DNA of 64,000 bases from a virus (IMGVR_UViG_3300028654_000001:1-64000), one strand, 5' to 3'; shown: positions 9,884 through 46,257, counted from the first letter of the stretch. Notes: generated by a model from the letters alone, not told the origin. Program-made: numbers and translations.

Positions 9884-10112
9884 GATTCACGCTAAGATCA
9901 ACCTCACCTGTCACTGGATGCTCATACCCGACTATCTCTTTACATGTAGAACATATGAGTGTGCAATAAGGTCTAATCTCTAACCTAAGTAAAGACCACC
10001 TCCACCTCTGAACTTGTCCACGTAAGAATGGGTCAAAAGGAGAGGCACCGCAATGAGGACAGCTCTCGATTGGTGAGGGTTTGTCTAGAAGAACAGCGCA
10101 TTCAATCGGCAT
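9813..10112 (-). CDS. Zinc-ribbon protein
   Basis: 99 aa from ATG 10112, which lies inside the end of the upstream DUF2829-tag gene; GAGAGG ten bases before it is the ribosome binding site and at the same time encodes Glu-Arg of that gene's C-terminal tag. CPHCGASPFDPFLRGQVQR and CSTCKEIVGYEHP provide two CxxC knuckles. This pattern recurs in phage proteins of unknown function. Confidence 0.65.
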   Translation of the reverse strand: MPIECAVLLDKPSPIESCPHCGASPFDPFLRGQVQRWRWSLLRLEIRPYCTLICSTCKEIVGYEHPVTGEVDLSVNPIRLLSRLGGKPPRNPQCSGRSD

Positions 10113-10578
10113 CGTCAAGAACCCTCTCGAATCGAGTTCGGGGTTCAACAATAATCCCGTCAGCGATCAACTCAGCTTTGAATGGAGATCCATAGGGGGT
10201 ACTGATAAGAAACTCCTTCAAGGCCTTCAAGATCCGTACATCATTGTCGATCAAGTTCCCTCGAACGAACACATCACCATTGCCCCTAAACCTCAATACC
10301 TCAATACCCTCGGTGACACAGAAGATGAGATCACCGGGGGCACTGAAAGCTTCTTGTGACTGAATTAGTAAACCCTCTGGAGCAGCTAGTGCCTCCACTT
10401 CCCAGGTATCTGCCAACAAGGCCTCTGCTGTTGGAAACCACCTCTCATTTCGAGAGGCTGAAGCTTCCCATATGAAGTCAGGAGGTTCACTCCGCGTGAG
10501 GCTTATCCAGAACTTATTCGGATCTTGCCGCATGCGGCGCCCAGCTTTTAGATATCCTAGAGCTTGAGAGAAGTTCAT
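10102..10578 (-). CDS. DUF2829/Tad2-like domain fused to extra domain and C-terminal tag
   Basis: Residues 1-63 (MNFSQALGYLKAGRRMRQ ... WFPTAEALLADTWEV) are a second DUF2829 copy. About 65 residues of beta-rich sequence resembling phage virion surface repeats follow (GDLIFCVTEGIEVLRFRGNG, VRGNLIDNDVRILKALKEFL). The protein ends RTRFERVLDDAD, the shared C-terminal motif. If the first domain binds a cyclic nucleotide as Tad2 does, the tag could direct the sponge to a site or partner; that is inference. Confidence 0.65.
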   Translation of the reverse strand: MNFSQALGYLKAGRRMRQDPNKFWISLTRSEPPDFIWEASASRNERWFPTAEALLADTWEVEALAAPEGLLIQSQEAFSAPGDLIFCVTEGIEVLRFRGNGDVFVRGNLIDNDVRILKALKEFLISTPYGSPFKAELIADGIIVEPRTRFERVLDDAD

Positions 10579-11099
10579 GAAGCTAACCTTGAGTACAATG
10601 CATGAAAGAGAGTCTCTATGTACAACCTCTGGTCTTCTGTTACAGCTGGGTACCCGTGCAAATTAACATGCAACCGTACCGCCCGGACCATCTCTAAATC
10701 GGCCCCCCCATTAGGCAATGGCCCAATTTCATCATTTAGTACATTTAGTAATCTCTCACAACCTTCAAGCATCTCTCTGAAGGTTGCTTTCCCACTCGAG
10801 TACTCTTGCCCATACTCCGAACAAGTTCTGCATCTGTGGGGGACTGGTCCGTAGGGCCCCTGACACTGAGGGGCATCTTTAATACAACCTACCTGCAAGG
10901 TTCGTTGTTCTGAAACCTCCCTTGCCTTTGGACCCTCGATTGGACGTCTCCAAAGAACCGTAACACCTATTGTGGTAAGCGTTATCTTGGACTTGTAGAT
11001 CCTCCAATCACCTCCAAGAGGGGGCTCTAACTTCCCCGTTGCTGAATAATACAGGAGATGGTATTCGTAAATGGGCTCTGGCATGGAATCATCAATCAT
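10575..11099 (-). CDS. Hypothetical protein (about 174 aa)
   Basis: Contains a central Cys/His cluster (GCIKDAPQC, HRCRTCSEYG) that could bind metal and an otherwise alpha/beta sequence. No family recognised. ATG 11099 overlaps the ung stop; an alternative ATG at 11084 gives MPEPIYEY. It ends overlapping the next gene's ATG. Confidence 0.55.
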   Translation of the reverse strand: MIDDSMPEPIYEYHLLYYSATGKLEPPLGGDWRIYKSKITLTTIGVTVLWRRPIEGPKAREVSEQRTLQVGCIKDAPQCQGPYGPVPHRCRTCSEYGQEYSSGKATFREMLEGCERLLNVLNDEIGPLPNGGADLEMVRAVRLHVNLHGYPAVTEDQRLYIETLFHALYSRLAS

Positions 11100-11844
11100 T
11101 CAGGTCACTTAGGTCAAGTTTCAGATCTTCGTTTAGTGGGTTTGGAGGTGGGGTAGTAGGGCGAGGGACTTCCTCAAATGGGTTCGTTGGGAGTTGCCAA
11201 TCAATTGGGGCGAGGTCTTTCCGAAGCAATGCTTGATTGGTTCTTGAGAAGTGTCTGCAGCCATAGAATCCTTGATAGGCTCCTAGGGGTGATGGGTGGG
11301 ATGATGCTAGCACTACATGGTGTTCTGTACTGATCATCTCGGCTTTTGACTTTGCATCGTTTCCCCACAACAGAAATACGATCCTCTTCTCTCGAGCGGC
11401 CAAGACCTTGATCACCCTACTAGTAAAGGTCTCCCACCCTAACTTGCGATGAGATCCAGGCTCTCCTTGACGGACAGTTAGTACGGTGTTCAACAAGAAC
11501 ACCCCTTGTTTAGCCCAAGCCATCAAGTACCCGTGGTCGACTGGCTTCACTCCGAGGTCGTCTCGAAGCTCCTTGTAGATCCCGCGCAGTGATGGTGGGG
11601 GGTTTACCTTGGGGAGGACTGAGAACGCCAACCCATGAGCTTGACCTGGACCGTGATATGGATCCTGACCCAAGATCACTACAGAAACCTCGTCGAGTGG
11701 AGTCATATCAAAAGCTGTGAACACCTTCCCAACAGGCGGGTAAATGACAGACTTTTCTCGTTCAGCTTTGATGAAGGAAGTCAACTCAATGAAGTATGAC
11801 TTCCTCATCTCATCAGAGAGAGCTTCAATCCAGGACTCGTGCAT
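11092..11844 (-). CDS. ung: Uracil-DNA glycosylase, family 1
   Basis: GQDPYHGPGQAHGLAFS (residues 59-75) contains the catalytic Asp and water-activating loop; LLWGNDAK and HPSPLGAYQGFYGCRHFSRTN (about 183 on) give the uracil-binding and Leu/His intercalation loops. Excises uracil from DNA to start base-excision repair. At 250 aa it carries about 35 residues beyond the usual end (PTTPPPNPL, then acidic). A phage gene of this kind could exclude uracil from its DNA or repair deamination. GTG at 11847 is an alternative start. Confidence 0.93.
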   Translation of the reverse strand: MHESWIEALSDEMRKSYFIELTSFIKAEREKSVIYPPVGKVFTAFDMTPLDEVSVVILGQDPYHGPGQAHGLAFSVLPKVNPPPSLRGIYKELRDDLGVKPVDHGYLMAWAKQGVFLLNTVLTVRQGEPGSHRKLGWETFTSRVIKVLAAREKRIVFLLWGNDAKSKAEMISTEHHVVLASSHPSPLGAYQGFYGCRHFSRTNQALLRKDLAPIDWQLPTNPFEEVPRPTTPPPNPLNEDLKLDLSDLND

Positions 11845-11846
11845 CA

Positions 11847-12125
11847 CTAATTCAATCGAGTGTCAGTTGGATTTTCGGGTATGTCAAGAAGCCCTATAGC
11901 GAACTTGTTGAATCGATCACGCTCTTCTTGACCCCTAGTTTGGAGGTGTTGAATGTACTCTTCTTTTATTTTCAGGATGTTTTTGGCAAGACGGGCCTCA
12001 GAGCGGTAGAGCTCTATCTTCTGCCAGATGAACAGTACTGGTACTAATCCGAATAAAACCCCGCATCCTACGAGGAAGACTTGGGCTATACCTGGGGTGA
12101 CCCTCAAGGCCTCATCAAAGTTCAT
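11847..12125 (-). CDS. Membrane-anchored coiled-coil protein (92 aa)
   Basis: One membrane helix (IAQVFLVGCGVLFGLVPVLF, about 13-32) followed by a charged helix of about 50 residues, likely a cytoplasmic coiled coil. The size and topology recall phage spanin or small inner-membrane proteins but no lysis neighbours are visible. ATG overlaps the upstream stop (ATGA). Confidence 0.6.
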   Translation of the reverse strand: MNFDEALRVTPGIAQVFLVGCGVLFGLVPVLFIWQKIELYRSEARLAKNILKIKEEYIQHLQTRGQEERDRFNKFAIGLLDIPENPTDTRLN

Positions 12126-12391
12126 CGGTCACCAGCGGCGAAGTCTGAGTAGAGCATTTTGGTGTCAGCCTCGAAAATGTCATAGTAGTCGATATTCGCG
12201 AATCGAGTCTTGCAGGTACCGCCTTCAGTACTCTCTTCCCACACTCGACGAGCAACTTCGTAAGAAACGTTAGCTTCGATGTCGATCCAATTGTTGTCGA
12301 ACCCGTCGTAAAGTCGTACAGTGTAGAGCTTTCCAGGCAAACCAGCAGCACAGGTCTTTGGCTTATTGACTGGCTTCTCAGGTTCAGACAT
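12122..12391 (-). CDS. Hypothetical protein (89 aa)
   Basis: I chose ATG 12391 (MSEPEKPVNKPK) because a GGTGTAGTCTATAC element lies 21 bases upstream with AGG near the start; a longer frame would contain that element. Two Cys; no family recognised. Confidence 0.55.
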   Translation of the reverse strand: MSEPEKPVNKPKTCAAGLPGKLYTVRLYDGFDNNWIDIEANVSYEVARRVWEESTEGGTCKTRFANIDYYDIFEADTKMLYSDFAAGDR

Positions 12392-12406
12392 AGCCTGAGT
12401 ATAGAC

Positions 12407-12412
12407 TACACC
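12407..12412 (-). promoter_or_regulatory. GGTGTA element before 12391 gene
   Basis: CCGGTGTAGTCTATACTC on the minus strand; TATAC could serve as -10. Spacing to ATG is 21 bases. Confidence 0.5.
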
Positions 12413-12417
12413 GGGTA

Positions 12418-12810
12418 CTAACGGCAAATGCTTTCAACAAGCCGAGATCTCAGGAAGTTCTGATACGAAGCACGATCGGTCAGGCGCTCATCAAGTACCC
12501 GCTCTGGATGATCTAAGTGAGCACAATCAAGTACTTCCAGATACAAACCAAACTCCTTAATGAACCTCAAATTGATCTTGGTTAGGGCCCCTCCTACCTC
12601 TAACTCAAGAAACTCGTTGAAGTCACCGGTGTTTTTTGGGTGTTCCTGAAAGGACATCTTTGCTATTACCGGTTTCTCACCTGAAAGCGACTCAACCTCT
12701 CTCAGCGACTGCAGCATAAATTCCCAGGCTTCTTTATGAGTAAGTGAGTCAACTTTAGGCCGGGTAGGTGGTACAGTAAGAGCTCGTAGGGATTGCATCT
12801 GATTGCCCAT
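12418..12810 (-). CDS. Hypothetical protein (130 aa)
   Basis: Alpha/beta sequence with an acidic middle (FNEFLELEVGG) and a helical end rich in Arg. No family recognised and no clear ribosome binding site. First gene of the minus-strand run that reaches 7995. Confidence 0.5.
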   Translation of the reverse strand: MGNQMQSLRALTVPPTRPKVDSLTHKEAWEFMLQSLREVESLSGEKPVIAKMSFQEHPKNTGDFNEFLELEVGGALTKINLRFIKEFGLYLEVLDCAHLDHPERVLDERLTDRASYQNFLRSRLVESICR

Positions 12811-13137: not shown

Positions 13138-14634
13138 ATGACGGTCGAGAGATTCTCCAATCAAGCCTCAACCACATTATTTACCTCTGTAGGTACTGGA
13201 GATCTTAGTATCTCAGTTCAGGCTACAACCAACTTCCCAGGCTCACCCGAGTTCAGGATCAGAATCGGTCAAGAACTCATGTTGGTGACCGGAGTCTCTG
13301 GTACCACTTGGACGGTAACCAGGGGGATTGAAGGAACAACCCCAGCTTCACATGCACCAGGTTCGATCGTCGTAGCGGTACTGACCTCGGGTGCACTTAC
13401 TGAGATGAGGGCTGAGATCGAAGCTGAGATCCCTTCGGGTACAATTCAGACCACTGATCCTCGCCTGGCCGATGATCGAACAGCTTCAGGAATCCGAACA
13501 GAAACAACCGTTGTAGCTATCTCTTCAGCAACAGCACCTACTCCTGGACAAGTCCTGACTGCTACGAGTGGAACTGCTGCTGACTGGAAGACCGTACCGA
13601 CACCACCAACCATCACTAGCCATGGTTCTGCAGCAGCCGGTGATGTTGTTCGACTCGTCTCTGCCGAAGTCCTTGCTCAGGCCCTGGCTGACTCTACTAG
13701 TCATGCTTCCTCGCTAATTGGTGTGTGGAATGGTGTTACTCCAGTTTCATTCTCTACTCAGCCTGTTGTAAATTTTGATTCTTCCCCAATCGTTGGAGCC
13801 CCATGTTATGTTTCAGCATCCGTTGCAGGAGCATTAACCTGCACAATCCCTGGCGTAGGCTACGTTAGTGTACCGCAGGACTTGTTGGTACTCGAAGATA
13901 AGTCTGTTGGGACAGCTTACGCAGCCAGGGTTGGGATCAATAAAGCTATGACAGGATCTCTGTCGGCTCGTGATGATTTCAAGCGCTATGCAGCACAACT
14001 AACTGGAATGAACCTAGCCAAGGCTGAGTTTTTTGGAAGTGACTTTACCGCAAGTGAACTACAAGATACTGGTACTGGTCCGATGCTCCCTCTTACATTT
14101 GGAACGTGGACTCAGCCGTGCCTACCCAGTTCTCAATATTCTAGTATTTATACGAACACAGCTGGAACAGTATTGTCCGTCAAAAAAGTTCTACCTGCTG
14201 CAAATCTAGCAACACAGAAGTGGGCAATGAGTGTGCGCTTTAGACAAGATGTTGCTGGCTACGAATTGATCCTTGCTCTTCGCCGAGCGAATGTCGATGG
14301 GGTAACTTTCACGGAGACTGCCCAAGTTGGCTTCAGTGCGTACGTAGGACATTCAACTCAACTCCTCTTTGGTGCTGGTAACTTTGACCCAGCCGACGGG
14401 GTATGGGATGTTAGGACTCCGACTGCTGCATACGGTACAATTGGCGTAACTTGGCATCAAGGCGTGATGTACTCGAAGGGTGATGGCAACATTTATTGTA
14501 ATTTAGATAATGCTGGGGTACTGTCTTTGCCGATAGCTCCATCGGCGGCTACAGGAATGGTGGAGCTCTGGTGCAATACCAACAGCCTGCAAATGGATTG
14601 GCTGTACCTGGTCAACGAGAGAGTGGACTACTAA
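13138..14634 (+). CDS. Tail fibre/spike protein, lectin-like C-terminus
   Basis: 498 aa. Residues 1-100 (MTVERFSNQASTTL ... EFRIRIGQELMLVTGV ... ALTEMRAEIEAEI) are nearly the same as the N-termini of the proteins at 19699 and 61132, marking a common virion attachment domain. The DPRLADDRTASGIR block (about 107-120) is typical of phage fibres. The rest is beta-rich with a possible jelly-roll-like end (KWAMSVRFRQDVAGYELILALRR, GMVELWCNTNSLQMDWLYLV). No catalytic motif seen. It ends with TAATG shared with the next gene. Confidence 0.85.
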   Translation: MTVERFSNQASTTLFTSVGTGDLSISVQATTNFPGSPEFRIRIGQELMLVTGVSGTTWTVTRGIEGTTPASHAPGSIVVAVLTSGALTEMRAEIEAEIPSGTIQTTDPRLADDRTASGIRTETTVVAISSATAPTPGQVLTATSGTAADWKTVPTPPTITSHGSAAAGDVVRLVSAEVLAQALADSTSHASSLIGVWNGVTPVSFSTQPVVNFDSSPIVGAPCYVSASVAGALTCTIPGVGYVSVPQDLLVLEDKSVGTAYAARVGINKAMTGSLSARDDFKRYAAQLTGMNLAKAEFFGSDFTASELQDTGTGPMLPLTFGTWTQPCLPSSQYSSIYTNTAGTVLSVKKVLPAANLATQKWAMSVRFRQDVAGYELILALRRANVDGVTFTETAQVGFSAYVGHSTQLLFGAGNFDPADGVWDVRTPTAAYGTIGVTWHQGVMYSKGDGNIYCNLDNAGVLSLPIAPSAATGMVELWCNTNSLQMDWLYLVNERVDY

Positions 14635-15791: not shown

Positions 15792-15792
15792 T

Positions 15793-16660: not shown

Positions 16661-17533
16661 TTACTCGGTGAGCAGATCTAGTTGGTTGGATCTTACACCG
16701 GGTGTCGGATCCAACCTCTTTTGAGCCAAAGAGATGGCAACCGGGTTCTGGTCAATACCCACCCAATCACGTCCTAGGTTCTGTGCTGCCACCAGTGTTG
16801 TACCAGATCCGCACATTGGATCAAGAATACGCCCGCCAGGATTGGTGCCCAGTCGAACAACCCTATCCAGCAACTTCAAAGGCTTTTGAGTTGGGTATCC
16901 GGTGGACTCCGAGTTCAAGGGAGTGTTGGCCTTCATCGCCGAGCAATCAGTCCAAACACTCCCCATCCGGCGCCCCTTGTCTTCGTAGTACCGATAGGCC
17001 TTCCCATTGATGACTCGTTCCCGGTACCGCCTCCCTGACTCGTCGACGGACTTGAAGTGCATGTTCCGGCTGGTCTCGGCATACGGCTCTCGAACCTCTG
17101 GGTCATCCGAGTTGTAGGTGAACTCATCCCCGCGGGAGTAGACCAGGATCGTTTGGTGGGTGACACTCAGGCCCTTCTTGCCTCGAGCCCCATTCCCGGG
17201 AACCCAAATGATCTCCCCTCGAAAGTTTGGCTTGCCAAAGATATCATCCGCCAGAAGTTTGGCTTCGTGAACCCCCCTGAAGTCCAAGTGGAGCCACAAG
17301 CTACCATTGGGGTTGAGGGCAGAGTGAAGAACCCTCAACCGTGGCTCTAGCATCGAGCAGAAGCCCTCGATACCACCCCAGGAGTCTTGGTACATCACAT
17401 CACCATCCACACGTGCCCCAAAGCCACTACGAGCCGAGTGTGAGTATCCAGTATTGAATGGGGGATCAACGTAAATGAGGTCGAACAGACCCACCTTTGG
17501 AACCAGATCCAGGCAGTCACCATGGTACAACAT
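16661..17533 (-). CDS. DNA methyltransferase, beta-class
   Basis: VDPPFNTGY (about residue 21-29) is motif IV of N6-adenine enzymes; YPTQKPLKLLDRVV and LDPMCGSGTTLVAAQ (about 236-252) give motifs X and I. At 290 aa it is a compact stand-alone enzyme. No restriction endonuclease is visible nearby, so self-protection or regulation is more likely than a restriction system. ATG overlaps the upstream TGA. Confidence 0.9.
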   Translation of the reverse strand: MLYHGDCLDLVPKVGLFDLIYVDPPFNTGYSHSARSGFGARVDGDVMYQDSWGGIEGFCSMLEPRLRVLHSALNPNGSLWLHLDFRGVHEAKLLADDIFGKPNFRGEIIWVPGNGARGKKGLSVTHQTILVYSRGDEFTYNSDDPEVREPYAETSRNMHFKSVDESGRRYRERVINGKAYRYYEDKGRRMGSVWTDCSAMKANTPLNSESTGYPTQKPLKLLDRVVRLGTNPGGRILDPMCGSGTTLVAAQNLGRDWVGIDQNPVAISLAQKRLDPTPGVRSNQLDLLTE

Positions 17534-18024
17534 CAGATCACGTCTTTACGTTCGAATCGAGTCGGGACTTTGGCGTGCACTCGAGCCTCATATTCTTCCT
17601 TGTCATGAATCTGTCTTCGAGTCTGCACAGCTATCGCTGTAGTAGCCCCCTCCTCATCCCATAAGCTCTCGAGCTGGGAAACCTCCTCTTCTGGAGAGAG
17701 ATGGTTTGCACGAATAACTTCTCTATCCCAATCATTGAAGGAAACTGGTGGGGGTTGAGGAGCCCCTTTATTCAGTTCATTCACCAGCTGCATCCTACCC
17801 GCCAAACTTCTGAGTGAGTTCCAAAGTGGGTCATCTTGTTCGATAGTGGCTAGGAGTGATCGAAGGGCTATTACCCAAATTGTTTCAGTATTGGTACAAT
17901 CGGAACAAGCAAATCCAATAGTGCGATCCCTCGGATCATCACAACAGTACACAGAATGCCTGGTCTCCTGCACATGTTGGCGGGCTGCTTGGAACAACTC
18001 AGGGAAGTTTGGATACTCTGGCAC
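17533..18024 (-). CDS. Cys-containing protein with C-terminal tag
   Basis: The N-terminal 60 residues (ARQHVQETRHSVYCCDD, IGFACSDC) resemble part of the adjacent protein at 18032 (YRHVRENPEHTLTYADD, AFGFACKTC), so the two are paralogous there. A helical, acidic C-terminal half ends VPTRFERKDVI, the shared C-terminal motif. The neighbour carries the N-terminal tag instead. Function unknown. Confidence 0.65.
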   Translation of the reverse strand: MPEYPNFPELFQAARQHVQETRHSVYCCDDPRDRTIGFACSDCTNTETIWVIALRSLLATIEQDDPLWNSLRSLAGRMQLVNELNKGAPQPPPVSFNDWDREVIRANHLSPEEEVSQLESLWDEEGATTAIAVQTRRQIHDKEEYEARVHAKVPTRFERKDVI

Positions 18025-19698: not shown

Positions 19699-22167
19699 GT
19701 GACAACTGAACGCTTCGTCAATCAAGCAAGTACAGCTTTGTCCTCATCGGTTGGAGCTGGTGACCTAACCTTCTCAGTCCAGAGTACTACCCATTTTCCG
19801 ACTCAACCTGAGTTCAGGATTCGAATTGGCCAAGAACTCATGTTGGTAACCGGAGTCTCGGGTACCTCTTGGACAGTGACCCGTGGGATCGAAGGGACTA
19901 CCGCGGTTTCACATGCACCAGGTTCGACCGTTGTAGCTGTTCTCACTGGTGGTGGACTCGATGAGATGCGAACGGAGATCGAAGCTGAGAACAAGACTCT
20001 CAACTATGTAGCCATCGATGGTAGTGTAGATGACATGCCAGCATTTACTGCTAAATTAGCTTCAGCAGCAAGTACTGGGTATCGAGTACAACTGAATGCC
20101 GGGAATACAATTCAGTTCAAGACACCCCCTGATGGTAGTGGTACTTATGCTCCACCAAATTCTACTCCAAACCTGAGTAGTGGGGAGTACATGACGTGTG
20201 CTCCAGGTACAAATCTCAGGTTTGACATGACCTATCGCTTCGGGTTGTATGGGAGAGCTAACCTGTCCCCTGGGAGCACCGTTGCTTCTCCTCCTGCAAC
20301 CAGGGCTGCCAACAACAACATAATTATAGTCAACCCCTGGGGTATAACTCCTGCAGTTGGGTACGTTATCTGGGTTGAGCAGTACATGGGAGTTACCCCG
20401 CAAGTGAGCGGGTGTACATATACTATCAAGGAACTTGGTGTTTCCACCATAGGGATCACTGACGTAACGGCCACCACTCTCTATGGGGGTGGCGGGACTC
20501 TCAACGGACTGACCCTCAAGCTCAACATTGATGGGGCTGGAGAGCAGACACTTACGTTATCCGGAGCTGGGAATACAACAACCCTTATCACTCTCATTGC
20601 AGCGATAGTTGTTAAGTGGCCTTCTTTGCTGCAAGTGGGAACTGGTGGTGCATCAGGGAACAACCTACTCATCTCCTCGAAGTCGATTGTGATCGGAGCT
20701 GGTACCGCAAACACAGCTCTAGGTCTCACCGCTGGTGTTCCAACCTATGTTGCTGTTCTGCTCGACCGATCTATTGTGTGGGAGCATTCAATTGGCGACT
20801 CAGTTACCAGTGCCCCCGACTACCCGAAGGACATCTTACTTGACTTCACAGGAGCTAATGTCAGTGGGTACGCAAACCAGCTTATTGAGTTCACGCAGGC
20901 CCAAAGGGCTACAGTCAATGGACTCAACTATCAACTAACGAATGACCAGATCCCGTTCCTCGGTGGGACTGCTACTCTTGCATTTGATGTAGCAAGTCGC
21001 GAATGCACACTATCGAACTCAACGATTGAATTTCCGAATAACCCCTACTACATAGGGAGCAATGGCTTTTACGGTCAGTCAAATGAAGGAACCTTGCTGT
21101 GGAATAATCGAATCCGCAATGCCAGAGCGCAGGGGTACTCCTTCATGGACTGTTATGCCTGCAACGCCATTGGGAACATAACCTCTGACTGTGATTGGGG
21201 TCAAGTTGCACAAGTATTTGTGGATGGTACTTTTGGTTGTTTAGATTGTGCATTCGTTGCATGTGCTGACATTGGAAGTGAAGTAGGGCAGTGGCTTTGG
21301 GGTTCTAAAAGAACAAAAACCCTTGGGTTATCGAGCACTAAGAACCCCCAGTACGGGCTTCTAGTTGATCGCAATAATGAGACCGCAACATTTACAAATT
21401 GCAGCTATACCAAGGCTCCTATTGGTATTTATATCGACGCTACTGCAACTGGAACCTCATTCACCCAGCTGAATACTGACGAGTGTCTTACTGGAATTGT
21501 TATTGCTGGGGCAGCTACCATATCACAGTGGCATCACCACAGCACTCGAACTGATCCTGGTGCAACAGGGGTGTTTGTATCTGGAGTCGGCACTAACATC
21601 ATCCGCGACATAGATCTGAAGATGAGTGGAAGTGGAATCGCGGTTGATGTTGGTACTACGGGTACTCTACTACTGGATGGTGGGAGAATAGAGACGGGAC
21701 CTACAGGTTATTGTTTGCGTGTACAGACAGCAGCTCGTATCAGACTGTCCAACATAACCTTTGCTGGTGGTGTTGGGATCTCTTGCTCAAGTGGTACTAT
21801 TGAGATAGGGCCAAACTGTGACTTTAGTGCTATAACAGAGAATCAACAATTTCTCGTGATTGCCCCGGGTTTGGTTACATTTCAGCAGACCGGTGGGGTT
21901 CTCTCGTATGCTGGCAGCAATCGATTCATACTACTAAGTGAGTGCTACAATACCACCATAGAGATATCGGCCTCAGCCTCAGCGAGTGGTGTTGGCCTAC
22001 CTGGGATACCTGGACTTCAGTTCACGGTAGTAAATAACAACACAAACCCGATGTTCGTTATCTCTAGGGCGGCAGGTGATACCGGAGTTACGATTGCCGG
22101 AGGCAAGACAGCTATTGTTAGGGTAGACTCGACTAACCACTGTAAGCGGGTAACCGCTGATCTATGA
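19699..22167 (+). CDS. Tail spike, predicted right-handed beta-helix
   Basis: GTG start; 822 aa. The first 100 residues match the shared fibre attachment domain. After about residue 105 a segment like a pectate-lyase-type spike begins (YVAIDGSVDDMPAFTAKLA), followed by several hundred residues of short beta-strands rich in Asn, Gly and Thr (e.g. RECTLSNSTIEFPNNPYYIG, TFTNCSYTK). This fold is typical of phage depolymerases, but no catalytic pair can be named. The end overlaps a 50-aa gene (ATGA). Confidence 0.85.
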   Translation: MTTERFVNQASTALSSSVGAGDLTFSVQSTTHFPTQPEFRIRIGQELMLVTGVSGTSWTVTRGIEGTTAVSHAPGSTVVAVLTGGGLDEMRTEIEAENKTLNYVAIDGSVDDMPAFTAKLASAASTGYRVQLNAGNTIQFKTPPDGSGTYAPPNSTPNLSSGEYMTCAPGTNLRFDMTYRFGLYGRANLSPGSTVASPPATRAANNNIIIVNPWGITPAVGYVIWVEQYMGVTPQVSGCTYTIKELGVSTIGITDVTATTLYGGGGTLNGLTLKLNIDGAGEQTLTLSGAGNTTTLITLIAAIVVKWPSLLQVGTGGASGNNLLISSKSIVIGAGTANTALGLTAGVPTYVAVLLDRSIVWEHSIGDSVTSAPDYPKDILLDFTGANVSGYANQLIEFTQAQRATVNGLNYQLTNDQIPFLGGTATLAFDVASRECTLSNSTIEFPNNPYYIGSNGFYGQSNEGTLLWNNRIRNARAQGYSFMDCYACNAIGNITSDCDWGQVAQVFVDGTFGCLDCAFVACADIGSEVGQWLWGSKRTKTLGLSSTKNPQYGLLVDRNNETATFTNCSYTKAPIGIYIDATATGTSFTQLNTDECLTGIVIAGAATISQWHHHSTRTDPGATGVFVSGVGTNIIRDIDLKMSGSGIAVDVGTTGTLLLDGGRIETGPTGYCLRVQTAARIRLSNITFAGGVGISCSSGTIEIGPNCDFSAITENQQFLVIAPGLVTFQQTGGVLSYAGSNRFILLSECYNTTIEISASASASGVGLPGIPGLQFTVVNNNTNPMFVISRAAGDTGVTIAGGKTAIVRVDSTNHCKRVTADL

Positions 22168-29553: not shown

Positions 29554-30003
29554 GTGCTCCTTCGCATCTATCAACTCCAAGATGACACGGAACCTTGGTT
29601 CCAGAAATCTGCAAAGGTTCCTCTCATAATCATAGCCAAAACCATGAGTGGTACTTTCAGTATTTCGTTACCTGAGCGTGCCAAAGTCCCACGAGACTCT
29701 ATAGGAGTGACTCCCGGGGAGCCCCCTTATGAAACCGCCAAGAGATCTATTCTTGAAAAAGCTCGAGAGATTTGGTCTTGTGTCAAAAAGAAGGGGTATT
29801 CGGATACTGGGTACTTCTATGGTACCTTCAATCCAACACATCAGTTGTCAACTCAAAGTAAGGGTATTGTTGGTAGCATAGGAATTTGCTACTGCCCACA
29901 GGAAGCAACACCTGGCTTCACCAGTGTATCCATAGAGGATATCGAATTTGAGGAGGAACCAAAGTTAGTCCCTACCAGGTTCGAACGTGAGGACGTGATC
30001 TGA
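29554..30003 (+). CDS. Hypothetical protein with C-terminal tag (149 aa)
   Basis: GTG start. Alpha/beta core without recognised domain; ends VPTRFEREDVI, almost the same as the end of the 17533 protein. The following gene's GTG is directly adjacent to the stop, with GTGAGG inside the tag as possible ribosome binding site. Confidence 0.6.
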   Translation: MLLRIYQLQDDTEPWFQKSAKVPLIIIAKTMSGTFSISLPERAKVPRDSIGVTPGEPPYETAKRSILEKAREIWSCVKKKGYSDTGYFYGTFNPTHQLSTQSKGIVGSIGICYCPQEATPGFTSVSIEDIEFEEEPKLVPTRFEREDVI

Positions 30004-30516
30004 GTGCCCGATGAAGAACTTCCCCAGGCGTACGTCAAAGAGGTCGACGGTCAACTTGTCTTGATTGACCCAGTTGCAGCCGGAGTCCTCCAAGCTATCA
30101 ATCAGTACAACGGTAGTAACTGCAGGCATACCCTAGAGATTCAGTTAGAACGGGTGGTTCACTTCACTCGCAGGATTAGAGAACTTAGGAAGAACCCTGC
30201 CGAGGTTACCATTGTACTCCTCAACGTGAATGACCCCTGGGGAGGCGCCATGGCAGAGATTCTGATGCCTGGCCATGACTGGAAACCCTATCGAGACCGA
30301 GGGGAGGTGCCCTTCGCTCGAGGGTTAGCCGGTCGCGAGGGGTTGCAGGGTGTCTTAGACGAAATAGACCCGAAAGAGGGAGCCAAGCTCCGTGAAGCGG
30401 GTCCAGTGGTTACCGTGGTCGTAATGGATCACGGAGTAGTAGAAGTCTTCAAGAAAGGTGACTGGGAGGACGACTACATTCCAACTCGTTTAGAGAGGGT
30501 TGCTGACTCAGAGTAA
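30004..30516 (+). CDS. Hypothetical protein with C-terminal tag (170 aa)
   Basis: GTG directly after the previous TGA. Alpha/beta core (EVTIVLLNVNDPWGG ... VVTVVVMDHGVVEVFK), no family recognised. Ends IPTRLERVADSE, a diverged form of the tag with Leu for Phe. Confidence 0.6.
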   Translation: MPDEELPQAYVKEVDGQLVLIDPVAAGVLQAINQYNGSNCRHTLEIQLERVVHFTRRIRELRKNPAEVTIVLLNVNDPWGGAMAEILMPGHDWKPYRDRGEVPFARGLAGREGLQGVLDEIDPKEGAKLREAGPVVTVVVMDHGVVEVFKKGDWEDDYIPTRLERVADSE

Positions 30517-30528
30517 CTTGAGGTCTCA

Positions 30529-30747
30529 ATGAGAGTATTCTGTAACAACTGCGCGTGTTCCCCACCAATAGGACTATACACTTGCCTTAAGGAGCACCCT
30601 ATTGTCTACGCAGGGTTAATGGATCCGGAGACCAAGAAGTTCAATAGACTAATGATTAGTGCGGATAGTAATGAGTGCCCTGACTTCGTGGACATGGTGA
30701 ATAGGCCAACCAGGTTTGAGAGAATCCTCGACGATGACATCCTGTAA
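30529..30747 (+). CDS. CxxC-family small protein 1 with C-terminal tag
   Basis: 72 aa. Order CNNC, CLKEH, CPDF then RPTRFERILDDDIL. First of five tandem paralogues. GAGGTCTCA precedes ATG. The Cys/His order suggests a single zinc site; role unknown. Confidence 0.7.
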   Translation: MRVFCNNCACSPPIGLYTCLKEHPIVYAGLMDPETKKFNRLMISADSNECPDFVDMVNRPTRFERILDDDIL

Positions 30748-30955
30748 CTACTGCGCCAACATCACTGGAAGAGGGGGAAAACCTAAGTGCCTCAAGGGTC
30801 ATCTCCTAAGGTCCACCCCAGTGTTTGTAGGGGAGTTAAGAACTGAGTTCCTGAACGTGCTAAGGTATGAGCCTGAGCCCTGTCCAGATATGGAATTCCG
30901 CCGTCTCTATCGACCAACACGCTTCGAAAAGATCCTCTATGACCCCGTCTTGTGA
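30734..30955 (+). CDS. CxxC-family small protein 2 with C-terminal tag
   Basis: ATG 30734 lies inside the previous tag (out of frame in its Asp-Asp codons), overlapping by 14 bases. CNYC, CLKGH, CPDM then RPTRFEKILYDPVL. 73 aa. Confidence 0.7.
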   Translation: MTSCNYCANITGRGGKPKCLKGHLLRSTPVFVGELRTEFLNVLRYEPEPCPDMEFRRLYRPTRFEKILYDPVL

Positions 30956-31169
30956 TCGATGTACCAAGAAACCTGCACATCCATCGGCAAGAAAACTGGC
31001 AGTTCAGTTCAGGGTACCTACGGTTTGTTCTAGGGGGCACGCGTTAGTGACCAGTAAGTTTACTCATACCTTCCTTCGAGTCATTGGAGAAGATATTGCT
31101 CCCTGTCCAGATTTCGAATTTGATGCCCCAAGACTAACTAGGTTTGAACGAATACTTAGAGAAGAATGA
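30939..31169 (+). CDS. CxxC-family small protein 3 with C-terminal tag
   Basis: ATG 30939 again sits inside the preceding tag. CDRC, CSRGH, CPDF then RLTRFERILREE. 76 aa. Confidence 0.7.
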   Translation: MTPSCDRCTKKPAHPSARKLAVQFRVPTVCSRGHALVTSKFTHTFLRVIGEDIAPCPDFEFDAPRLTRFERILREE

Positions 31170-31411
31170 GCACCATCTGCAACGATTGTGAGTACTTCCA
31201 TAAGTTAGGATCTGACGTCCTTGGGAGACTAGCACCACGAAAGTGGATCTGCGTGATGGTCCATCCAATAACACCCCTTCAAAAAGTCAGTAGGTCCTCT
31301 GAGGATCCACCGAAGTTCACCTACAAGAACGGTGATACTTGCAAGGAATATCGGTACGGTGGCCCGAGGCCGTCTCGACTCGAGAGGGTGGTTAGGGTTG
31401 ATATTCTGTGA
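31166..31411 (+). CDS. CxxC-family small protein 4 with C-terminal tag
   Basis: ATGA overlap with the previous stop. CNDC, a CVMVHP variant with the Gly lost, CKEY, then RPSRLERVVRVDIL. 81 aa. Confidence 0.7.
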   Translation: MSTICNDCEYFHKLGSDVLGRLAPRKWICVMVHPITPLQKVSRSSEDPPKFTYKNGDTCKEYRYGGPRPSRLERVVRVDIL

Positions 31412-31691
31412 TGATTGCCAGCACCACCCGCGCGTGTGGGGAGACTTCAACCCAGAGACAAGGGAGTGGTCTGGGATCTGTATGTGCGGGTGGAGAGTGC
31501 TAACCATCCTGTATATGGGCTCGGAACCCATCAAGAGAACTATAGCAAAGGGGAAGTTCACTAGTCCGACGGTGCGCCAAGACTATGATGACTGCAAGGA
31601 CTATGAGTTTGAGGGCCAGCGACTAACTCGGTTTGAAAGGATTCTGCTCCATAACTCATGCTTTCAAAAGTTCAGTGATTCGAACCACTGA
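31398..31691 (+). CDS. CxxC-family small protein 5, tag followed by extension
   Basis: I chose TTG 31398 because it gives MIFCDDCQHH, the same start as the paralogue at 32204, and lies inside the previous tag with GAGAGG upstream. CDDC, CMCGW, CKDY, then RLTRFERILLHNS plus ten residues; last gene before the hairpin, so the extension may reflect loss of the original stop. Confidence 0.6.
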   Translation: MIFCDDCQHHPRVWGDFNPETREWSGICMCGWRVLTILYMGSEPIKRTIAKGKFTSPTVRQDYDDCKDYEFEGQRLTRFERILLHNSCFQKFSDSNH

Positions 31692-31792: not shown

Positions 31793-31993
31793 CTAGATCT
31801 CTCGATCAGGACAATCGTCACAGTCCTTGCGAATCAAACCAGGATGCTTTAATTGAGGGACAGATCTCCCGTTCATCCTAAGAGCCCGTACCGAGTGGCC
31901 CTTGTCGCAAGTAATGACTAACTCGTTTCGATAGACTGGTTCAGCATTCTCTTGCGGTGGGAGGTTCTTGCATTCATCACAAAGTTTCAGCAT
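31793..31993 (-). CDS. CxxC-family small protein lacking the tag
   Basis: ATG 31993 lies inside the preceding gene's tag. CDEC, CDKGH, CDDCPDREI then stop: the protein ends where the tag would begin. 66 aa. Either a truncated copy or natural tagless variant, useful as an internal control. Confidence 0.65.
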   Translation of the reverse strand: MLKLCDECKNLPPQENAEPVYRNELVITCDKGHSVRALRMNGRSVPQLKHPGLIRKDCDDCPDREI

Positions 31994-32204
31994 TGAGGAT
32001 CCTCTCAAATCTAGTTGGATGTTCCGTGATATCCCTCTCCAAGCAAACTGAGGCATTTCGAACCAGACGAAGCTTAACTTTATGTCCTCCCGGGTTGATG
32101 TTGGTATACTTTATGAGGTGCCCACGTGAGCACATAGCTTCCCAGTCGCCCACGGTAACATCAGGAGGAGTGGGGCGCCACTTGCAGTTAGAGCAAAAGA
32201 TCAT
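31977..32204 (-). CDS. CxxC-family small protein with C-terminal tag
   Basis: MIFCSNCKW, CSRGH, then HPTRFERILNAETL. ATG 32204 overlaps the upstream tag; its own tag codons GAGAGG sit seven bases before the next ATG. Confidence 0.7.
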   Translation of the reverse strand: MIFCSNCKWRPTPPDVTVGDWEAMCSRGHLIKYTNINPGGHKVKLRLVRNASVCLERDITEHPTRFERILNAETL

Positions 32205-32607
32205 TCAAAACCCTCTCGAATCTGGTTGGGTGTGTCCCGTTATCATAGTCTGAACAGAAGTCTGAATTCTCGCGAATCAAACTTTTTAGAGGAGCATCAT
32301 AGAAGTAGTCTTGGGCTGCCAATAACTGATGCCCTTTATCACAGGCTAGAGAACGATTTCTGTGGAGTCTTTCAGTCAAAGGCGGCGGGGCCCACTTACA
32401 ATCGGTACAGAGGATCATTCTTGCACCACCCCCTTCAATATCTGGGCAAGGTGCTTGCCCAACAGGGTGTAGCCCAACACCAGAGGAGTTCTTACTAGCC
32501 CAAATTCTATGACGTTTTGCACAATCACCACGCCACTGATCTATATCGTAATCATCTAACCTAGGCCTACATAGAACGTGTTTGCACCCATTACAGATGG
32601 TATACAT
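32188..32607 (-). CDS. Two-unit CxxC protein with single C-terminal tag
   Basis: 139 aa from ATG 32607. First unit: CNGC, CAKRH, CPDI, EGGGAR; then directly a second unit starting MILCTDCKW, CDKGH, CSDY, HPTRFERVLNDLLL. The junction replaces the first unit's expected tag and stop, an in-frame fusion of two neighbours. A GGTGTATCCTAAAATTG element precedes the start by 17 bases. Confidence 0.65.
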   Translation of the reverse strand: MYTICNGCKHVLCRPRLDDYDIDQWRGDCAKRHRIWASKNSSGVGLHPVGQAPCPDIEGGGARMILCTDCKWAPPPLTERLHRNRSLACDKGHQLLAAQDYFYDAPLKSLIRENSDFCSDYDNGTHPTRFERVLNDLLL

Positions 32608-32618
32608 CAATTTTAGGA

Positions 32619-32645
32619 TACACCAGAACAATGCGAATCGGTGTA
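32619..32645. promoter_or_regulatory. Divergent GGTGTA pair
   Basis: Minus-strand core at 32624-32619 for the 32607 gene (17 bases) and plus-strand core at 32640-32645, 14 bases before a short leader ORF at 32654. Confidence 0.5.
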
Positions 32646-34551: not shown

Positions 34552-34812
34552 ATGGTCACCAACTGCCTCCATTGTATCCATTGTCCTCAGGTCGATGATT
34601 CTGAGGACTTACGCGGGGGTTGGGCTGTCTGCAAGAAAGGGTTTGATGTTCAATATTGGACTAGACCCAAAATACCATCCGGGGGATCTGGGTTAAAACA
34701 CATGTCTGTCGTAAGGGATGGATCCGACTGCCCACTTTATGATACTGGGGAGTATGAAGGCCCAAGACCCTCCCGCCTCGATAAAATCCTGCAAGATGGC
34801 TACCCTCTGTGA
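34552..34812 (+). CDS. CxxC-family small protein with C-terminal tag
   Basis: CLHCIHC, CKKG, CPLY, then RPSRLDKILQDGYPL. 86 aa. The next paralogue's ATG (34796) lies inside this tag. Confidence 0.65.
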   Translation: MVTNCLHCIHCPQVDDSEDLRGGWAVCKKGFDVQYWTRPKIPSGGSGLKHMSVVRDGSDCPLYDTGEYEGPRPSRLDKILQDGYPL

Positions 34813-35018
34813 CCAGTGTCCCCCACAGGCCCCCCTTGATCGACGGTAGAGATCGATGCAATAAAGGTCATCCAGTTGTAGTGGTTAGAGTATACGAACC
34901 TGAAGGCTCAAAGTTTTCCAAGAGAGTTCTGCACCGAGATGACACAGATGAGGTCTGTTCTGATTTCCCACACGCGACAAGGTTTGAGAGAATCCTCCGA
35001 GATGGCTACCCTTTGTAG
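34796..35018 (+). pseudogene. CxxC-family gene with frameshift at a six-C run
   Basis: From ATG 34796 the frame reads MATLCDQCPPQAPLDRR and stops at 34847-34849. Dropping one C from the run at 34830-34835 joins it to DGRDRCNKGHPVVVV ... CSDF ... HATRFERILRDGYPL, a complete family member. Causes could be a sequencing error, a real mutation, or programmed +1 slippage. Confidence 0.6.
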
Positions 35019-38926: not shown

Positions 38927-39139
38927 TCATACAAGGTCGTCTTTGAGAACTCTCTCTAATCGGGTAAGTCTCTGCCCAGTATCATGATCTGGGCAGGACT
39001 CATCATCGGCTCTCGCCGCTATCCCTTTCTCACCGGTCTTACGATTCACCGGTTGAATAAGAGTGTACCCACGATTACAGGCTAATCCAAGCTTGGTGTG
39101 CTCGGAGCTCCACTTGCACTCGCTACACGATAATCTCAC
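38927..39139 (-). CDS. CxxC-family small protein with C-terminal tag
   Basis: GTG 39139 chosen because MRLSCSECKW matches family starts and it lies inside the preceding tag. CSEC, CNRGY, CPDH, then RLTRLERVLKDDLV. 70 aa. Confidence 0.6.
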   Translation of the reverse strand: MRLSCSECKWSSEHTKLGLACNRGYTLIQPVNRKTGEKGIAARADDESCPDHDTGQRLTRLERVLKDDLV

Positions 39140-39500
39140 CCTGAAGGATCCTTTCAAATCGAGTTGGATACAGGGTCTCAGCCTCTTCCTCGCGCTCAAC
39201 AAAACCTGGACGGCAGTAGGATAACTGAAGGAAGCCACCCTCTGGCGTAGTATATATGATCTTCCAATCATACAAGTTAAGGTGATCTATATTTACAATC
39301 CACTCAAGGCAGTACTTCATCAGGAAGTAGGGATCTTCTCTGACCCAAGCCAACCTAGGCCACTTAACAACGGCGCTCGTAAGCTCATTCTTCAGAGCAT
39401 GAACGAACTCAGAGATCCCAGCCCCAAGCCCGTTAACCTTGAATAGAGGGTGACCCGAATCGTCTTCCGAGACTGCTACGAGAAGTTCCTTGTAACTCAC
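39123..39500 (-). CDS. Non-CxxC protein with C-terminal tag (125 aa)
   Basis: GTG start overlapping the upstream stop. Core lacks the CxxC pattern (ISEFVHALKNELTSAVV; Trp-rich middle) and is unrelated to its neighbours, yet ends YPTRFERILQGEIIV, showing the tag is modular. Confidence 0.65.
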   Translation of the reverse strand: MSYKELLVAVSEDDSGHPLFKVNGLGAGISEFVHALKNELTSAVVKWPRLAWVREDPYFLMKYCLEWIVNIDHLNLYDWKIIYTTPEGGFLQLSYCRPGFVEREEEAETLYPTRFERILQGEIIV

Positions 39501-39742
39501 AGGACAACCCCACTCAAGATCCTATCAAACCTCGTGGGCCTAATATCTAGTTTGTCACCACAAATCTCGCTGTGGGTCATGCTGAGCACCCTTGGAACCT
39601 CTTGTGTTGCCTTATCGGGAATCCATATGTAGAACACATAATGCCCCTTGCAACAGGGGGCATACCCGGAGTAGTAAGTTGGGTCATCCTCCACGTGAAA
39701 CTTATGTGAACAATCCATGCAGTTGGTCAGAGCCATAGGCAT
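39497..39742 (-). CDS. CxxC-family small protein with C-terminal tag
   Basis: CMDC, CCKGH, CGDKLDI, RPTRFDRILSGVVL. Possible starts GTG 39745, ATG 39742 or ATG 39736 (MALTNC); undecided. Confidence 0.6.
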   Translation of the reverse strand: MPMALTNCMDCSHKFHVEDDPTYYSGYAPCCKGHYVFYIWIPDKATQEVPRVLSMTHSEICGDKLDIRPTRFDRILSGVVL

Positions 39743-39779
39743 CACTCATGCACGAGATTATCACGAACCATGCTGATCC

Positions 39780-40791: not shown

Positions 40792-40799
40792 GTTAGGTC

Positions 40800-41647: not shown

Positions 41648-41771
41648 CTGTCAGCTCTGCTCTACAAGCAGCAACTACGATCCTCGCAAGTATAGACGAC
41701 AAGAAGCTTAGCTGATTGGCCGAAGTTAATGTACTTGAAAACAAGCTCAATTTGGAATAATATTGAACCGG

Positions 41772-42218: not shown

Positions 42219-42242
42219 AACTCTGGCTCGGGCAACTCTCTT

Positions 42243-43484: not shown

Positions 43485-43493
43485 AAGGTAGTA

Positions 43494-43499
43494 TACACC
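43494..43499 (-). promoter_or_regulatory. GGTGTA element before 43484 gene
   Basis: TCGGTGTATACTACCTT then GTG, 15 bases. Confidence 0.45.
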
Positions 43500-43501
43500 G
43501 A

Positions 43502-43690
43502 TTAGCGCTGAGTAAACAGCCTAGTGTCAACGAAGAGGACGATATCACCAGGCTCCGAACTTTTTGTAATCATTACATTTAGCCCGAACTCAAACAGCTT
43601 CCAAGCAATGTACTGAGCAGTTCCAGAGGTGCCCTCGACCACCTGCTTATGCTGGTACGGAGCGTCCTTGAGTTGGGAGCCCCCATCCAA
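43502..43690 (-). CDS. Possible small protein (62 aa)
   Basis: TTG start; helix-beta sequence (YIAWKLFEFGLNVMITKSSE, DIVLFVDTR). No ribosome binding site; low certainty. Confidence 0.35.
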   Translation of the reverse strand: MDGGSQLKDAPYQHKQVVEGTSGTAQYIAWKLFEFGLNVMITKSSEPGDIVLFVDTRLFTQR

Positions 43691-43718
43691 TCAATGATCA
43701 TAATTTTCATAGAAACCC

Positions 43719-44099
43719 TCAATAAGTTCGTTGCTTTGGCGAAGGGGATCGTTGGCTCGTTCCAAAAAGGTAGAAACTTCTTTCATCGAACGGACTTACT
43801 TTAAACCCGAGCTTACTCACCAACCTCACCGCAAATCTAGGCTCTAGAACGCATTCCACGTAGATCCCCATCTCGGGATACTGAGCTCGTAGCCTTGCCA
43901 CTAGGCGGGTGAAGGTGCCTTTCCCTGGATGCCTAGCAGTGAGATTTGACAGGTCAATCATCAACCGTAGACCCCCTTCAAGAGATCTCTTGGAAAGGCG
44001 GACGTAGAGTTTGGTGAACCCGGGCTCCTTTACCCAGGAGTTCTTAGGCCATGCTTTCTCCCCTTGAACGAGGAACTCATCAAGGGTTGGTTCCTTCAT
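43719..44099 (-). CDS. GNAT-like acetyltransferase-fold protein
   Basis: 126 aa. LMIDLSNLTARHPGKGTFTR resembles the GNAT beta4-alpha3 region with a G-K-G-T loop for the CoA pyrophosphate, and VECVLEPRFAVRLVSKLGFK its C-terminal signature (VLN..A...L...GF). Substrate unknown. Confidence 0.55.
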   Translation of the reverse strand: MKEPTLDEFLVQGEKAWPKNSWVKEPGFTKLYVRLSKRSLEGGLRLMIDLSNLTARHPGKGTFTRLVARLRAQYPEMGIYVECVLEPRFAVRLVSKLGFKVSPFDERSFYLFGTSQRSPSPKQRTY

Positions 44100-44167
44100 A
44101 GCCTTCGGGTATTTTTAGGGGCATTGATCTTGAACTTACTATTTCTCATGTAATACTACGTTTCAGG

Positions 44168-44422
44168 TCAGGTAATTTCACCAAGCCCAAGATCTAAACA
44201 GAAAGTCGTTGCACTGGCCTCCCTAGTCTCCAGGATCTCCAACTGCTCTTGGGTCAGGGATACCGCCCGGAGATCAACCTTGACGCCAAACGGCGCCAAA
44301 GCATTCTGGGCCGTCCAGATAGCATCCTGTTCGGTACTGTCCCAGCCATGGACAGCCCATCGCTTACCCAAGATCATGTTACCGTCGATGTGGAGGATCT
44401 CTCTGCCGATTGCTGCGAACAT
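44168..44422 (-). CDS. Hypothetical protein (84 aa)
   Basis: Alpha/beta (VHGWDSTEQDAIWTAQNALA), no family recognised. 44423-44573 holds nothing I recognise. Confidence 0.5.
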   Translation of the reverse strand: MFAAIGREILHIDGNMILGKRWAVHGWDSTEQDAIWTAQNALAPFGVKVDLRAVSLTQEQLEILETREASATTFCLDLGLGEIT

Positions 44423-44573
44423 TACATCCTATTGTACTACATATTGGGGGATCTACTCAACTAAGTTAGTCAATCACCAGAGAATAGTCTATCGAGCCGA
44501 GTTTGATCACAGCACCACTGAATATTCTCCTGGTTCTTATTGGACACGGAGCCTGGAAGTATCTAGTTTAGGA

Positions 44574-44972
44574 CTACTCCATGGCCTTATCAATCCACGA
44601 GTAGTCCTCTTCTTGCTTAGGTTCAGGCCCTTCAAGAGTCAACAAGAGGTCTGACTCTACATCTTCTATCGACTTTGGCTTAAGGGACTCTTCAATCCAC
44701 GAGTAGTCATCATACTCATCCTCTGGAAGATCCTTTATGGTTAGGACCTGGATGGCTAACTTAACAGCTATATCAATAGGACTCAGGCCCTCAACTTCTG
44801 CCACTACACGAATATAGTCGAAAAAGTCGAAGTAGAACTCGCTACCCCACCTAAAGCCAGGTTTGTGACCAGCACTTGCTAACCTAACCAGAAGTCGACT
44901 AATCCACTTGGTAACGGTCTCGTTTCCGAACCTCTTAGCAAGTTGAGTCCTTGAAGTTCCTGGTCTAGTCAT
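44574..44972 (-). CDS. Helical protein with repeated DYSWI motif (132 aa)
   Basis: N-terminal TRTQLAKRFGNETVTKWIS-like helix-turn-helix character, then an acidic tail with DDYSWIEESL and EDYSWIDKAM, two copies of a short motif 35 residues apart that could be docking peptides. ATG lies inside the preceding gene's tag. Confidence 0.55.
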   Translation of the reverse strand: MTRPGTSRTQLAKRFGNETVTKWISRLLVRLASAGHKPGFRWGSEFYFDFFDYIRVVAEVEGLSPIDIAVKLAIQVLTIKDLPEDEYDDYSWIEESLKPKSIEDVESDLLLTLEGPEPKQEEDYSWIDKAME

Positions 44973-45165
44973 GTAGGATCCGTTCGAATCGAGTCAAGTG
45001 CACAAGTGGTCGGTACCGGGCACACTTGAAAACCTCAGCCGTGGAGGTCCAATGACGAAGACCCTCCAAGCAAACTAATTCCCACCACGGGCGATCCCCC
45101 GAGGGGAATGGCGACGGTGGGTTCACATTACTCAGGCATGATTCGCAGAGGTTGGAGTCAGTCAC
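44965..45165 (-). CDS. CxxC-family small protein with C-terminal tag
   Basis: GTG 45165 inside the preceding tag gives MTDSNLCESC, CLEGL (His replaced), CARY, HLTRFERILHD. 66 aa. Confidence 0.6.
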   Translation of the reverse strand: MTDSNLCESCLSNVNPPSPFPSGDRPWWELVCLEGLRHWTSTAEVFKCARYRPLVHLTRFERILHD

Positions 45166-45475
45166 CGGAGAGAATTCGTTCGAATCGAGTTGGGTAGGTC
45201 TCTTCGACTTTAGAGTATTCGTCCCGAAAGTCAACGCAGCGGCCATTCTCTACCGGAACTAAGTGGGCTCGCATCTCATGGTTGCCAACCCTCAGTGTGA
45301 TCTTGGCCACATGGTTAGCCTTGCAGGTAACTCGGTACATCTCAACCGCTGTCTTTGGGCGATGAGTTCTGAGAGTCGGATCAAGTGGCACCATAAACTC
45401 AGTTGATCTAGGAAAAACCCTATCCTTGTACAGATAGTCATCCGGGCAATGGTTGCAGTAGTTACAGATTGGCAT
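45158..45475 (-). CDS. CxxC-family protein with C-terminal tag (105 aa)
   Basis: MPICNYCNHC, CKANH, CVDF, YPTRFERILSGD; longer first loop than the other members. Confidence 0.65.
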   Translation of the reverse strand: MPICNYCNHCPDDYLYKDRVFPRSTEFMVPLDPTLRTHRPKTAVEMYRVTCKANHVAKITLRVGNHEMRAHLVPVENGRCVDFRDEYSKVEETYPTRFERILSGD

Positions 45476-45748
45476 TCAGATCCAAGATTCAATTGCTGGC
45501 AGATCCTGGGTACTTGGCTCAGCCAGGCATACCCGCCCTGGAGGGATAAGCTTCCTCGCTTCCTCCAAGGTATTAGTCAGTTGGTAGTCTACATGCATAT
45601 ATACCTTCTCATTCAACGCTGTTGACTCACGCACTACATAGTTCTCAGGGAAGTCGAATGGGTGCTTGTAGATCGTGAGGACACTAAGACCTTTAGACAT
45701 ATCCAAGTCTTGAATTATATTGGTGCTTTCTAGAACTACTCTAGTCAT
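45476..45748 (-). CDS. Hypothetical protein with KHPFDFPENYVVR motif (90 aa)
   Basis: Beta-rich; IYKHPFDFPENYVVRES reminds me of small phage proteins of unknown function. TAATG overlap with the upstream gene. Confidence 0.55.
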   Translation of the reverse strand: MTRVVLESTNIIQDLDMSKGLSVLTIYKHPFDFPENYVVRESTALNEKVYMHVDYQLTNTLEEARKLIPPGRVCLAEPSTQDLPAIESWI

Positions 45749-46257
45749 TATGTCCTAGAGGAATCGTCATCGAGAACCCTCTCGAACCGAGTTGGCCGTG
45801 GTCCTCTGTAGGACGCTGGCTTGGCATCAACACCTATCGGACCATGTTCTCGAACCAACTCACCTTCCAAATCAACCTCTCGAATGACCACATATGGTAG
45901 AAGTCGACTCAGGTCCCCCAGACTATTCCTTGCAAGCTCACGAACGTTTTCCGTGAGAAGTGGACTATCAGGACTGAGCAGAGCGAACTCAATCGTGGGG
46001 TTTACCTGGCCGGCACTGGCCTCAATTCGTAAATCTTGAATAAGACTTACTTGGTTTCCATTCGAGTAGACCTTAGTATTCTGAACCGACAAGGGTCTAT
46101 CGCCCTCATCACTCTCGGGGTGTGTCCTTTCAGATGTAATCACCAATGCGTCTTCACTTAGAATGACCACTTGATGAAGTCGGTTTGGCCACGAGGCATC
46201 TGTTCTACGCTGTATAATGAATACCCTATCGAACTCCCCCACTTCGATCGTTGGCAT
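45748..46257 (-). CDS. Hypothetical protein with C-terminal tag (169 aa)
   Basis: Beta-rich first half (FDRVFIIQRRTDASWP), helical second half, then RPTRFERVLDDDSSRT. The downstream start is after the stop, so the tag here cannot be explained by an overlapping gene start. Confidence 0.6.
   Translation of the reverse strand: MPTIEVGEFDRVFIIQRRTDASWPNRLHQVVILSEDALVITSERTHPESDEGDRPLSVQNTKVYSNGNQVSLIQDLRIEASAGQVNPTIEFALLSPDSPLLTENVRELARNSLGDLSRLLPYVVIREVDLEGELVREHGPIGVDAKPASYRGPRPTRFERVLDDDSSRT

Follow-up and report, generated by a model that had tools for sequence, protein, structure and literature searches.

Encapsulin cargo is loaded through a short C-terminal extension that follows a linker on otherwise unrelated proteins, and interactions at the sliding clamp or the SSB tail bring many unrelated proteins to one hub by way of one short motif. 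The capsid-targeting sequence (CTS) of T4, a stretch of 10-20 residues, sits at the N-terminus, is removed by the prohead protease and marks a restricted group of head proteins (PMC5694885). For import in nucleus-forming phages a recognition surface has been proposed, no conserved linear signal having been found (PMC11087766).

The phage tag described here can be set beside each of these systems. Like the T4 CTS and the head propeptides of giant phages, it is a short peptide common to several phage proteins that may bring them to one place; unlike the CTS, it is carried by about 65 proteins, some of them membrane-anchored, gives no indication of being cleaved and lies mostly at the C-terminus, otherwise internally or in loops, near-N-terminal copies being confined to a single protein, 223751. 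Like encapsulin cargo peptides, it is a short C-terminal tag placed after a linker on unrelated proteins, but it also occurs internally, and no encapsulin-family gene was found: the shell family PF04454 is absent from the record in a search whose control was positive in 3 of 14 known genomes. As in phage-nucleus import (Imp1/PicA, Chimalliviridae), one phage-encoded system would pick many phage proteins; here, however, a strong linear signal is present, and the capsid is phage G-like. A search with the nuclear-shell protein (chimallin) gp54 of phiKZ was empty, a weak negative from a single divergent query run without a positive control. The resemblance to sliding-clamp and SSB-tail motifs lies in the many unrelated proteins that carry one short motif, although far more phage proteins are tagged here. 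To our knowledge the tag sequence is unlike the known hub-binding C-terminal motifs. A literature search for a protein end or address tag shared throughout a phage gave no precedent, its coverage being thin for subscription papers.

The window, by which we mean the whole stretch of 64,000 nucleotides that was analysed, comprises bases 1-64,000 of a 512,571-bp record of a virus that infects bacteria. Our gene survey takes in 721 predicted genes from stretches of the record that were read directly; roughly 114-120, 153.5-161.5 and 165-203.5 kb lie outside those stretches and are covered by a genome-wide pattern search. The peptide comes in two types, type I being [P]TRFERILx[D/E]..., usually 4-24 residues before the protein end, and type II PTRFER[ED][DP]VI, always at the exact protein end. 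A first-pass annotation had described such a C-terminal peptide on 19 window genes, and all 19 do carry it, one of them (34796) only by way of a frameshift:

10105..10140, minus strand: tag RTRFERVLDDAD, C-terminus of 10102-10578(-), 158 aa, with a Tad2-like (DUF2829) N-terminal domain
17536..17565, minus strand: type II tag PTRFERKDVI, end of 17533-18024(-)
29971..30000, plus strand: type II tag PTRFEREDVI, end of 29554-30003(+)
30481..30513, plus strand: tag PTRLERVADSE, end of 30004-30516(+), 170 aa, without known family
30706..30744, plus strand: tag PTRFERILDDDIL, end of 30529-30747(+), four-Cys family
30914..30952, plus strand: tag PTRFEKILYDPVL, end of 30734-30955(+), four-Cys family
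31134..31166, plus strand: tag LTRFERILREE, end of 30939-31169(+), four-Cys family
31370..31408, plus strand: tag PSRLERVVRVDIL, end of 31166-31411(+), four-Cys family
31623..31688, plus strand: tag LTRFERIL plus 14 residues, end of 31398-31691(+), four-Cys family
31980..32018, minus strand: tag PTRFERILNAETL, end of 31977-32204(-), four-Cys family
32191..32229, minus strand: tag PTRFERVLNDLLL, end of 32188-32631(-), tandem pair of four-Cys modules
34768..34809, plus strand: tag PSRLDKILQDGYPL, end of 34552-34812(+), four-Cys family
34974..35015, plus strand: tag ATRFERILRDGYPL, ORF 34809-35018(+), tagged frame of the frameshifted four-Cys gene 34796
38930..38968, minus strand: tag LTRLERVLKDDLV, end of 38927-39271(-), four-Cys family
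39126..39167, minus strand: tag PTRFERILQGEIIV, end of 39123-39500(-), unrelated core
39500..39538, minus strand: tag PTRFDRILSGVVL, end of 39497-39745(-), four-Cys family
44968..44997, minus strand: tag LTRFERILHD, end of 44965-45246(-), four-Cys layout
45161..45193, minus strand: tag PTRFERILSGD, end of 45158-45475(-), four-Cys family
45751..45795, minus strand: tag PTRFERVLDDDSSRT, end of 45748-46257(-), unrelated 169-aa core

The same annotation had called the cores otherwise diverse. That description suits six of them (10102, 17533, 29554, 30004, 39123 and 45748), which are unrelated to the four-Cys set and, at the sensitivity used, to one another; the other 13 are short proteins with the layout CxxC...C...C and probably form one family, so that the window cores are less diverse than had been claimed. 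The Tad2-like domain of 10102-10578 matches PF11195 at E=1.7e-4, under the curated cutoff. Gene 34796 is not an intact ORF: its ATG frame (MATLCDQC...) needs a one-base shift at a C-run to enter the CNKGH...ATRFERIL frame, the intact ORF at the locus being 34809-35018, and the split within 34796-35018 may be an assembly error, decay or a programmed shift.

The tag extends far beyond the window into the rest of the record. Searched with a degenerate DNA pattern encoding [TS]R[FL][ED][RK][IVM], it gives 57 matches over its whole length, against 7 with the pattern reversed. Within the last 25 residues the strict motif occurs in 52 of the 721 genes, as against 0.24 for shuffled proteins, an enrichment of about 200-fold at C-termini; it occurs 11 times elsewhere in proteins, and about six of these, roughly half, are real tags in linkers, loops or near an N-terminus. 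The frequency at protein ends is therefore well above that at internal positions. Variant ends add two proteins, with PNRFEREEVI (107402-107788) and FNRFSRILLDDDD (264224-264760), and the tagged proteins of the record number at least 65, spread over about 27-35 families. Their genes occupy 10-152 kb, 205-289 kb and 502 kb, and no strict motif was counted in the 300-480 kb bins, the region that holds the capsid gene. At record position 93735 the type II tag PSRFERDPVI stands on an ORF of 33 aa with a stop before it, which may be what is left of a tagged gene.

Iterative profile searches placed 63 tagged cores in 35 clusters, or roughly 27 once the remaining CxxC singletons are merged, and this clustering excludes a single homologous family as the source of all tagged proteins. 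The tag is found at C-termini, internally, near an N-terminus and doubled, two copies being present in the small protein 243801-244046. In the kinase-like protein 240283-241326 it lies within an insertion of about 30 residues, after GTY and before a VIV strand; the insertion with its tag is present in a relative (G003), and an untagged viral relative (L115, 37-44% identical) has no such residues. Protein 246657-247118 has its tag inside a cysteine-rich region, whereas its paralog 17533-18024 has it at the end. Multi-member families are almost all tagged, and the sole apparent exception, 107402, ends in the variant tag. AlphaFold models of the kinase and of a capsid-like family were both of low confidence (mean pLDDT 39), so that alignment and position are the grounds for taking the tag to be exposed, and Foldseek with the capsid-like family model returned nothing significant. 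To judge from the sequences, the best explanation is that the tag usually occupies an exposed protein end and sometimes a surface loop.

The coding of the tag indicates that it is the peptide that has been preserved. The first Arg is the same in all 64 aligned tags, one of which (468463) probably matches by chance, yet it is written with all six Arg codons; across the tag core the middle codon position holds 1.6-2 bits of information and the third 0.1-0.7 bits. Thirteen ortholog pairs are 85% identical in the tag, as against 53% in the preceding 25 residues and 60% in the rest, and 52 of the 88 identical tag residues are encoded by different codons. The proposal that selection acts on the peptide is thus borne out, and the sequence comparisons place the tag under strong purifying selection at that level. 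It outconserves its flanks and is independent of fold (27-35 clusters, the loop insertion), as is expected of a short linear motif. A relative keeps both the gene order and the tags on its contigs (3300037088_000682 and others), the relatives' loci being fragmentary metagenome contigs.

The tag is confined to this lineage. The capsid protein (403571-404440), itself untagged, is of the phage G type and shares 83.7% identity with its counterpart in LR745208, and the tag pattern is not enriched in LR745208, phage G, Tunturi_5 or the 252-kb record behind L115; in the approximately 400 of 485 kb of LR745208 that were read, neither tagged orthologs nor an alternative shared end was seen. In GTDB genomes of bacteria and archaea (257 Gb scanned) the type II tag had no match, and none of the five stretches that matched type I had a C-terminal tag. 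Mimicry of a known host C-terminus was rejected on the lack of any C-terminal match in those genomes and of any match in the PDB. What these comparisons establish is a tag that is portable over unrelated cores, independent of position, kept between relatives and restricted to one lineage.

Among the tagged proteins we recognise the Tad2-like protein (10102), the kinase-like protein, a RecA/UvsX-like ATPase (288798), the four-Cys proteins (a group of about 20) and a second Cys family with C..C-LATR. Three tagged proteins or families contain segments of the phage's own major capsid protein:

220848-221597: tagged, contains capsid residues 3-62; orthologs in L083
222714-223754: tagged, contains capsid residues 244-289 and then 84-140, in permuted order; orthologs in L083
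108542 family (with 29554-30003, 109102 and, weakly, 133881): tagged, matches capsid residues 54-98, more weakly (E=2.6e-4, hhalign probability 63%)

It is possible that the first two are decoys of a capsid-sensing defence or capsid-binding parts. The tagged proteins gave no match to the gene that precedes the capsid gene. A predicted membrane helix is present in the tagged protein 210444-210767 (hydropathy peak 1.92) and in four tagged proteins of the relative G004 (30476, 31303, 32355 and 42703; hydropathy 2.35-3.32); by their predicted topology, the tag ends a long soluble part. A set of NAD/purine-like genes, named by eye, is interleaved with tagged genes at 239139-246183 of the record (nicotinamide phosphoribosyltransferase-, nucleotidyltransferase-, Nudix- and adenylosuccinate synthetase-like).

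We think it fairly probable that the tag is a portable docking motif by which some 65 proteins of the phage, its clients, attach to a single common receptor; since the tag belongs to this lineage alone, the receptor would probably be a phage product too. The docking core would be [TS]-R-[FL]-[ED]-R, with I-L-x-[DE] after it in type I and a terminal [ED]-[DP]-V-I in type II, and it would be read independently of fold and place. A single receptor for all clients would be the simplest arrangement, and types I and II could also bind different partners. The receptor would presumably be cytoplasmic and could be tethered to the membrane via the membrane-anchored tagged proteins, and the clients (four-Cys, kinase-like, RecA-like ATPase, Tad2-like and capsid-derived modules) may gather in one complex during infection. 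More tentatively, the lineage may run a proteome-wide sorting system in which one linear tag, at any exposed site, directs about a tenth of the proteins to a complex or compartment built by the phage, membrane tethers and capsid-piece proteins included. Cells depend on linear address tags for their organisation, but no linear import signal is known for the phage nucleus, the phage compartment that has been studied best. A tag on about 65 proteins would be a handle for finding the receptor and, by association, would predict what dozens of uncharacterised proteins do. The tag and its receptor would also supply a new orthogonal peptide-receptor pair, and searching uncultured giant phages for shared protein ends can bring concealed networks of proteins to light.

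Because capsid-protein pieces are present in three tagged proteins, packaging into the virion remains the chief rival explanation: the tag would then be a C-terminal analogue of the T4 CTS and would fill the prohead with proteins that are ejected into the next host. T4 and giant phages do package many internal proteins via targeting propeptides (PMC5694885), but in the known cases the targeting peptide is at the N-terminus and is cleaved off; the capsid is that of a phage G-like giant phage, yet its gene is untagged and lies in the region without strict-motif tags, and LR745208 shares both capsid gene and capsid module yet lacks the tag. A Tad2-like counter-defence protein would gain from injection, whereas the membrane-anchored tagged proteins argue against simple capsid cargo, and on balance we regard this explanation as unlikely. 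The first-pass annotation had proposed a sorting or docking signal; selection on the peptide and its mobility between unrelated cores uphold that much, and the membrane-anchored members fit poorly with capsid cargo as a general rule. Rather less probable is a degradation signal, recognised by a phage or host protease adaptor that would clear this class of proteins at a set time. Many degrons are likewise C-terminal and follow linkers, and cytoplasmic degrons are possible on membrane proteins, but there are tags at internal sites as well, one of them in a loop insertion, and the free C-terminus of type I varies widely.

We give little credence to a by-product of shared ancestry, in which duplication or recombination spread a gene end without function; true gene families exist (the four-Cys group) and some tagged proteins share a longer stretch, Y-x-G-P-R-P, before the tag, but such spread would have had to reach unrelated clusters, the kinase insertion and the near-N-terminal copies, and purifying selection is strong on the tag alone. 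An element in DNA or RNA, whereby the tag codons of overlapping genes provide both a Shine-Dalgarno sequence (GAGAGG) and a start codon for the gene that follows, is scarcely credible as the main cause. In the window the next genes 30734, 31398, 32204 and 34796 do start inside a tag, and GAGAGG-like codons appear in many copies, but in fewer than half; internal copies exist, and the freely varying third codon positions exclude a start site or ribosome-binding site as the principal explanation. Service as a ribosome-binding site for the next gene is at most a secondary use.

Two classes of promoter-like motif are present in the record. Among the first two genes downstream of the extended early-region motif class, 1 of 58 is tagged, as against 36 of 263 (Fisher p=0.006), and that one is a false regex match, which says that tagged genes form an expression class apart from the extended early-region promoter class. 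A 34-bp promoter-like motif, TTGGTGAGATCC-N7-CCTCAAACGTAGTACTGAG, often stands immediately 5' of a start codon and is concentrated in the first 150 kb, and the first genes behind it do not include tagged ones; its sites include 6079, 18907, 34478(-), 56664 and 58436 in the window and about 30 more up to 148 kb of the record, most listed sites scoring above 25 bits where the reversed sequence also yields 17 matches above 13 bits. A second motif, (T)CGGTGTA, typically lies 16-20 bases upstream of start codons, those of several tagged genes included; about 60 sites are present in the record, among them 6042, 6055, 35024 and 36758 in the window.

Two other observations concern the window. At 48708-50285 it encodes a phage protein in which an OmpA domain is fused to an NMT1/THI5-like binding domain (phrog_25518), and the N-terminal parts of 13138-14634 and 19699-22167 match the same tail-fibre families, which suggests alternative or duplicated fibres.
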